DNA of 64,000 nt, from positions 479,501-543,500 of the forward strand of contig WPIO01000011.1 in the NCBI GenBank assembly GCA_009760855.2. The letters are read 5' to 3'. This DNA is from Cristatella mucedo (lineage: Eukaryota > Bryozoa > Phylactolaemata > Cristatellidae). A program made the translations under genes and the position numbers. The notes beneath the pieces were generated by a model. It did no database searches, was not told the origin of the DNA, and saw nothing but the letters and a program-made list of their open reading frames with translations. This document shows positions 21,567-44,914 of this stretch, in pieces. Numbering within the stretch: the first letter of the stretch is position 1; each line of letters starts with the position of its first letter.

Positions 21567-21729
21567 ATGACTATTGTAAGCAGGATTTCAAGGCATTCTG
21601 TTGGCAGACACCCACTGCAGCATTGGTTCAGCATTCGTCTTGCAACGTCGGTAATTATTTTCAACTGTGTTACGTATGGGGCTGTTACGACATGGTTTCG
21701 AACAAAGACAATCCTCGGTGCTCAGCCAG
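21567..21729 (+). CDS. Gene A exon 1: signal peptide
   Basis: The exon ends at CCAG|GTGAGA in phase 1. The hydrophobic core is [20 protein letters not shown], followed by [10 protein letters not shown]. Gene B's first exon has the same ending pattern: aromatic-R-[ST]-[RK]-[AT], then QP at the junction. The ATG at 21567 gives an unusually long 25-residue lead before the core. A more 3' start joined to an unseen 5' exon is possible, since candidate acceptors exist at 21607 and 21620. The intron to exon 2 is only 182 bases. Confidence 0.55.

Positions 21730-44914: not shown

Follow-up and report, generated by a model that had tools for sequence, protein, structure and literature searches.

Gene B, which spans positions 21567 to 44914 on the forward strand of the 64,000-nucleotide stretch analysed here (the window), holds up as a real gene in its main part and is one member of a tandem family of Ig receptors that have diverged from each other. 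The window corresponds to C22:479501-543500 in a genome of 572 Mb and 688 contigs. Besides gene B, contig C22 carries four more genes of the same family, on the same strand and spread over about 240 kb; judged by sequence, the family has at least five neighbouring same-strand copies on this contig. We consider it likely that these genes arose as tandem duplicates of one family and encode single-pass IgSF receptors, probably of type I, of a lophotrochozoan, for which a role in recognition is favoured.

Rebuilding gene B from the sequence gave ten exons (Table 1) that join into exactly 552 codons plus a stop, and all nine introns are of the gt-ag type, with phases 1, 1, 1, 2, 1, 1, 1, 1 and 1. 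The ten exons, gt-ag ends and 552 stop-free codons proposed in an earlier sequence-only reading were thus reproduced exactly. That reading also held nine successive phase matches to be hard to get by chance, which is a weak argument as stated: since the exons had been selected for their fit, phase-matched gt-ag chaining proves little alone. By one rough count, 12 strict phase-1 exon-like segments occur on the + strand of the window, 8 of them in gene B. We accept the main exons of gene B as real because of the four further family genes on C22, most of whose sequence lies outside the window. Its product carries three Ig domains, and two exons encode each of them; a stalk and, less firmly, a transmembrane (TM) segment follow.

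Table 1. Exons of gene B and positions of related genes (window coordinates unless a contig is named)
Feature	Position	Strand	Content and basis
Gene B exon 1	21567..21729	+	Residues 1-54, putative signal peptide; ends in phase 1; basis is an open frame and a gt donor only
Gene B exon 2	21912..22061	+	Ig1 first half (Cys77, Trp86); counterparts in A, C, D1 and C114 gene
Gene B exon 3	25913..26071	+	Ig1 second half (Cys116, Cys123, Tyr140-x-Cys142); counterparts in A, C, D1, D2 and C114 gene
Gene B exon 4	30810..30924	+	Ig2 first part (Cys179 to Trp196), phase 2 out; counterparts in A, C, D1 and D2
Gene B exon 5	33165..33367	+	Ig2 second part (Cys211-Cys212, Tyr243-x-Cys245); counterparts in A, C, D1, D2 and C114 gene
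Gene B exon 6	33541..33774	+	Ig3 first part (Cys299); counterparts in A and C; Pfam Ig_3
Gene B exon 7	33855..34007	+	Ig3 F strand (F-x-Cys350) and membrane-proximal stalk; position, phase and motif; similarity in D1 and D2
Gene B exon 8	39041..39157	+	Transmembrane segment; weak donor gtatac
Gene B exon 9	43359..43451	+	Putative basic juxtamembrane segment; splice signals and open frame only
Gene B exon 10	44643..44914	+	Putative cytoplasmic tail, Y488NAL and Y506LRL, stop; acceptor and open frame only
Gene A exons 2-8	window-equivalent -73707 to -48305	same as B
Gene C exons 2-8	window-equivalent 57058 to 71904	same as B
Gene C exon 2	57058..57213	+	Start of next tandem paralog, inside window
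Gene C exon 3	59553..59702	+	Inside window
Gene C exons 4-8	window-equivalent 64251-71904		Beyond window end
Gene D1	C22:312867-328894	same as B
Gene D2	C22:365434-374133	same as B
C114 gene	C114:172175-180317		Exons 2, 3 and 5 seen

A search of the window with the product of gene B returned an exon-2-like stretch at 57012-57251 (E 9e-8) and an exon-3-like stretch at 59570-59704 (E 4e-5), and the same product searched against the window plus 100 kb on each side (264 kb) revealed genes A and C. The sequence-only reading was blind to this tandem membership, with gene C beginning at 57058 of the same window. In A and C, exons 2-8 have intact splice sites, the phases 1, 1, 1, 2, 1, 1 and 1 found in B, and near-identical lengths (A/B/C: exon 2, 150/150/156; exon 3, 159/159/150; exon 4, 115/115/115; exon 5, 203/203/197; exon 6, 234/234/234; exon 7, 186/153/192; exon 8, 120/117/108). 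No stop occurs in exons 2-8 of the three genes, and protein identity to B is 32% for A and 30% for C, within the 30-35% of the family neighbours overall.

The individual matches differ in strength. Exons 2, 3, 5 and (in C) 6 were matched in the 264 kb, mostly at E 1e-7 to 1e-13, with exon 3 of C at E 1.5e-4; among the controls, the reversed 264 kb gave E 0.06 at best and 20 shuffled proteins E 0.11. In this search, exon 4, at E 0.15 for A and 0.08 for C, and A's exon 6, at E 0.15, did not rise above the controls, and they therefore rest on position, phase, length and a comparison of open frames, which lifts exon 4 of A and C and exon 6 of A to E 4e-6, 6e-7 and 3e-4, respectively. For exon 7, the assignment in A and C is based on its position and an FxDxFxC motif, and that in D1 and D2 on similarity. 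A pseudogene or a chance chain of exons, for which the large introns full of LINE fragments, the unsupported exons 1, 9 and 10 and the odd exon 5 of the C114 gene (described below) might speak, is very improbable: splice sites, phases and frames have stayed intact over exons 2-8 of three genes at only 30-32% identity, and the control searches do not reach the better matches. We regard exons 2-7, that is, the three Ig domains and the stalk, as confirmed by comparison with the paralogs; exon 8 is supported by position and is the weakest of the seven recurring exons. The claim of a complete three-Ig membrane receptor is thus supported, with unequal strength, for these seven exons and not for exons 1, 9 and 10 (signal peptide, basic segment and YxxL tail), which are without independent support and are predictions.

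The family was also followed through the genome. With exons 2-10 of gene B as the query and E up to 10, at least 29 places were found: nine are B's own exons, 16 lie in D1, D2, A and C (two of these, at E above 3, were counted for lying within their gene), three are on C114, and one on C421 (E 3.8) was taken as chance. The gene C query, at E up to 1, gave at least 19 places, all on C22 and confined to those five genes; 7 are exons of gene C itself. Among the matches listed, the family occurs only on C22 and, with the B query, on C114. Exon 2 of D2 was not seen when the exons of D1 and D2 were read.

Over 142 codons, the protein of the C114 gene is 58% identical to that of D1. At the DNA level, its exon-2 and exon-3 pieces align with D1 at 68-70%, in the exons only, and its exon-5 piece is unmatched (three pieces, 1.9 kb). 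An allele of D1 was considered and rejected, as the DNA aligns in exons 2 and 3 only; by sequence, the C114 gene looks like a sixth member of the family. Its exon 5 (in the stretch C114:179801-180700) is without the usual GxYxC and reads DSVCLRC, and is possibly decaying or divergent. The dN/dS values (NG86, about 142 codons), obtained for two of the three pairs (C114 gene versus B is without a value), are 0.14 for the C114 gene versus D1 and 0.15 for D1 versus B. With dS of 2.3 and 3.9, respectively, which is near or past saturation, these values are rough; they show constraint, not diversification.

The terminal exons of gene B are a different matter, as the open-frame comparison with A and C revealed nothing that corresponds to exons 1, 9 and 10. 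Codon usage is uninformative on them: their scores were matched by 24-38% of random open stretches and those of the proven exons by 10-31%, so that proven exons, too, score inside the random range. The hydrophobic core of exon 1 is weak (best charge-free 10-residue window 1.95, residues 26-35), and a simple signal-peptide scan of the 12 kb upstream of gene B listed nothing, exon 1 included, and thus no alternative first exon. Gene A has a better signal-peptide candidate exon, with a strong core and a donor that lies 413 bases upstream of exon 2.

Candidate TM exons of 108-120 nt, with phase 1 on both sides, follow exon 7 in A, C and D2; they were chosen for their hydrophobicity, in a scan of phase-1 exons, and not for sequence similarity, and the 2.9 kb available for D1 yielded none. 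The same scan missed exon 8 of B, with its weak donor, and gave other candidates in B and C, which is why we rank exon 8 lowest among the seven. Basic residues stand just inside the candidate TM exon in A, B, C and D2. A probable type I topology would agree with the TM exon of B and the candidates in A, C and D2, whereas the putative signal peptide is weak in B and a better candidate in A. In the predicted tail (residues 431-552), a pattern search for canonical ITIM, ITAM, hemITAM and ITSM motifs found none, only YNAL and YLRL, and a tail motif scan of A and C gave no convincing candidate. The YxxL tail described in the sequence-only reading thus survives as two YxxL motifs in a predicted exon, to which no canonical immune tyrosine motif fits.

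Typical marks of the IgSF fold, namely a B-strand Cys, a C-strand Trp and a GxYxC F strand, are found in the extracellular part, Ig3 being without the Trp. In the family alignment, Ig1 keeps Cys77, Trp86, the extra cysteines 116 and 123, and Tyr140-x-Cys142; the Cys and Trp are present in all four members read there and Y-x-C in all five. Ig2 keeps Cys179, Trp196, a Gly and Cys245; all five members have its first Cys, the Trp and the F-strand Cys, and its Tyr243 is shared by four of the five, D1 having Phe. Ig3 has Cys299 and F-x-Cys350 in all five and a kept GxP motif. Introns between domains are in phase 1, as is usual for extracellular modules. Those within domains fall at three different sites (strand names inferred), that is, after the C-strand Trp in Ig1, in the Trp codon in phase 2 in Ig2, and before the F strand in Ig3, which argues against one domain having recently been duplicated inside the gene.

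Profiles built from the family reach known Ig structures. The product of B alone gave a sub-threshold Pfam Ig_3 match (E 0.033) and no match up to E 10 in the Protein Data Bank. With all five members, Ig_3 was matched in each, at E 1e-8 at best and at E 0.012, below the Pfam cut-off, in B. A three-sequence profile matched 34 distinct structure chains at E up to 10, mostly Ig, with PsaL (E 1.5) as the one clear outsider; the best were IgNAR V domains over Ig2 (E 0.0066) and PD-L1 over Ig3 (E 0.046). The best 60 matches of a five-sequence profile at E up to 1 were led by DSCAM (E 9.3e-5, where no single stretch passes alone), another DSCAM chain (E 2.5e-4) and MDGA1 (E 0.0013), all over Ig3. The comparison with IgSF profiles suggested in the sequence-only reading thus ties Ig2 and Ig3 to Ig structures, and the paralogs and profile searches together support a three-Ig-domain, single-pass membrane receptor. 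Ig1 had no clear match to Ig structures in these profiles and is assigned by its residue pattern and its conservation between paralogs. Other Pfam matches in B and the four paralogs were weak only (E 0.065 and 0.19), to membrane-protein families.

No homologue of the B product was found at E<=1 among 7,993 scored candidates from 5.8 billion proteins, and a second protein search gave none either; because each search started from exact word matches and was capped at about 8,000 scored candidates, more remote relatives could have escaped both. Within the searches made, this is a new family, with no relatives found elsewhere so far. The main rival to a recognition role is an adhesion or neuronal guidance IgSF family (beat- or contactin-like) that is in tandem by happenstance and has no immune role. 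The likeness of Ig3 to DSCAM, MDGA1 and contactin domains agrees with it, as do the combination of Ig domains and a TM segment with no known signalling motif, the rough dN/dS values, and the fact that such IgSF families may be tandem too. We nevertheless hold it to be rather unlikely, as a failure to find any homologue would be unusual for conserved neuronal families and neighbouring genes are only 30-35% identical to B.

The mitochondrial genome points to the lineage of the host. Contig C688 (21,008 bp) is mitochondrial, and when its COX1 was compared with 119 reference proteins (best COX1 matches), AGR codons aligned with Ser 745 times; the other AGR alignments among the lists shown were Ala 158, Thr 116, Gln 113 and Gly 5. 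ATA reads as Met, TGA as Trp and AAA as Lys, which gives the invertebrate code (code 5). The animal is not a tunicate, since the ascidian code reads AGR as Gly, and here it is mostly Ser. One strand of C688 carries nad1, nad6, cob, nad4L, nad4 and nad5 in this order (open frames, named on sight); the mollusc Scutopus has the same block, and phoronids, brachiopods, nemerteans and entoprocts are few steps away (PMC4189740). The best named COX1 matches, among 120 of 7,999, were gastropods, cephalopods and chitons (up to 82%), closely followed by a nemertean (81%), an annelid (80%) and a phoronid (79%); one further sequence in the list is 95% identical. These sequences point to a lophotrochozoan host, neither tunicate nor cnidarian; taken by themselves, they would make a mollusc the probable choice. 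COX1-like fragments on C166, C83, C549 and C299 are probably nuclear copies of mitochondrial DNA, and suggest that C688 belongs to the same animal. Elsewhere on C688 the order is rearranged, with cox1, atp6, cox3 and nad3 on the nad5 strand and nad2 and cox2 on the opposite one, and pieces of open frames that recur at a distance of 2,115 bp and in inverted form suggest duplicated segments.

Several known Ig receptor systems can be set beside this family. In molluscs, VIgLs are Ig-containing immune genes of a multigene group, and FREPs and VIgLs are secreted. The present family resembles gastropod FREPs and VIgLs in being Ig-containing and multigene, and differs from them in its TM exon and in that Pfam found no fibrinogen or lectin domain in B and the four paralogs; a fibrinogen domain is present in FREPs (PMC7588048). 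Oyster (Crassostrea gigas) CgIgIT2 is likewise an IgSF receptor that spans the membrane once and has several Ig domains outside the cell, and an immune role is reported for it (PMC11999971). By description, not sequence, the two differ: the same review assigns CgIgIT2 a classic ITAM and five Ig domains, although some papers among its references call CgIgIT2 inhibitory, compared with three Ig domains and no canonical motif in B. Among the papers listed on molluscan multi-Ig transmembrane receptors, none showed this architecture by title or abstract opening, which is weak evidence of novelty.

Closer in plan are the allorecognition genes. Botryllus schlosseri fuhc-tm has about 535 aa, three Ig domains and a TM segment, and the Botryllus FcoRs are a multigene group of 520-610 aa with tyrosine motifs in the tail (PMC12065747); fuhc-tm has 15 exons, with the TM in exon 11 (PMC3691228). 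By description, gene B is like fuhc-tm and the FcoRs in size, like fuhc-tm in its three-Ig and TM plan, and like the FcoRs in being multigene with tail tyrosines; it differs from fuhc-tm in having 10 exons with the TM in exon 8, and from the tunicate FcoRs, which add a sushi domain. When the open frames of A, B and C were compared at E up to 0.005, no extra match that could mark a sushi exon had the same place in any two genes; the comparison dropped 463, 436 and 741 matches in self-similar repeats, where such an exon is possible. Its other matches were one to three per pair (E 0.0007-0.005) and trivial self-matches at the B/C overlap, 45000-50000. Hydractinia Alr, an IgSF family of 41 clustered genes whose domains are of the V-set and I-set types (PMC11999971), is alike by description in its clustering and differs in being cnidarian. 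A Botryllus or tunicate affiliation, suggested by size and plan, was rejected on the mitochondrial code and the COX1 matches. An allorecognition-type locus like the Botryllus fester co-receptors or Hydractinia Alr would share with this family a clustered, type I, Ig-domain plan with a tyrosine-containing tail and 520-610 aa (PMC12065747), and is nonetheless improbable for an animal that is neither tunicate nor cnidarian, with no extra exon found at the same place between paralogs and no ITIM or hemITAM in the predicted tail. Because the mitochondrial code 5, gene block and COX1 point to a lophotrochozoan, we take the FcoR/fuhc and Alr genes to be at most analogues of the family.

The rest of the window is dense with LINE fragments, which we take to be L2-like, for example at 839-1267 (-) and 27478-27930 (+), with many more. 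Two of ten open stretches scanned pass the Pfam reverse-transcriptase cut-off, and a long open LINE copy runs from window-equivalent 86509 onward. A 193-codon open frame at 49695-50273 (+) has no Pfam match at E up to 0.01.

For the function of these genes, the architecture, the genomic pattern and the analogy to other Ig receptor families that are tandem and divergent lead us to favour a receptor of innate immunity or cell recognition, which might sit on blood cells, for example. A paralog identity of 30-35% together with the lack of homologues found is the pattern of fast-evolving recognition genes; the absent canonical tyrosine motif, the constraint in dN/dS and the existence of tandem adhesion or neuronal IgSF families count against this reading. 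In a recognition receptor of this kind, the Ig domains would bind an extracellular ligand, such as a microbial surface, a parasite or another cell, and divergence may have fitted the gene copies to different ligands. Should exon 10 be correct, the two YxxL motifs of the predicted tail could couple binding to endocytosis or SH2-type signalling. A further proposal, which we put forward tentatively and consider doubtful, is that the C22/C114 cluster is a polymorphic lophotrochozoan recognition locus, encoding diversified three-Ig receptors in the germline for self/non-self or parasite recognition, and independent of the chordate and cnidarian allorecognition loci.

What the analysis adds is a family without relatives in the protein searches made, revealed through the conserved gene structure of its tandem copies. 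If the cluster proves to be polymorphic or expressed in haemocytes, it would provide a test of an Ig-based recognition locus of the lineage's own.
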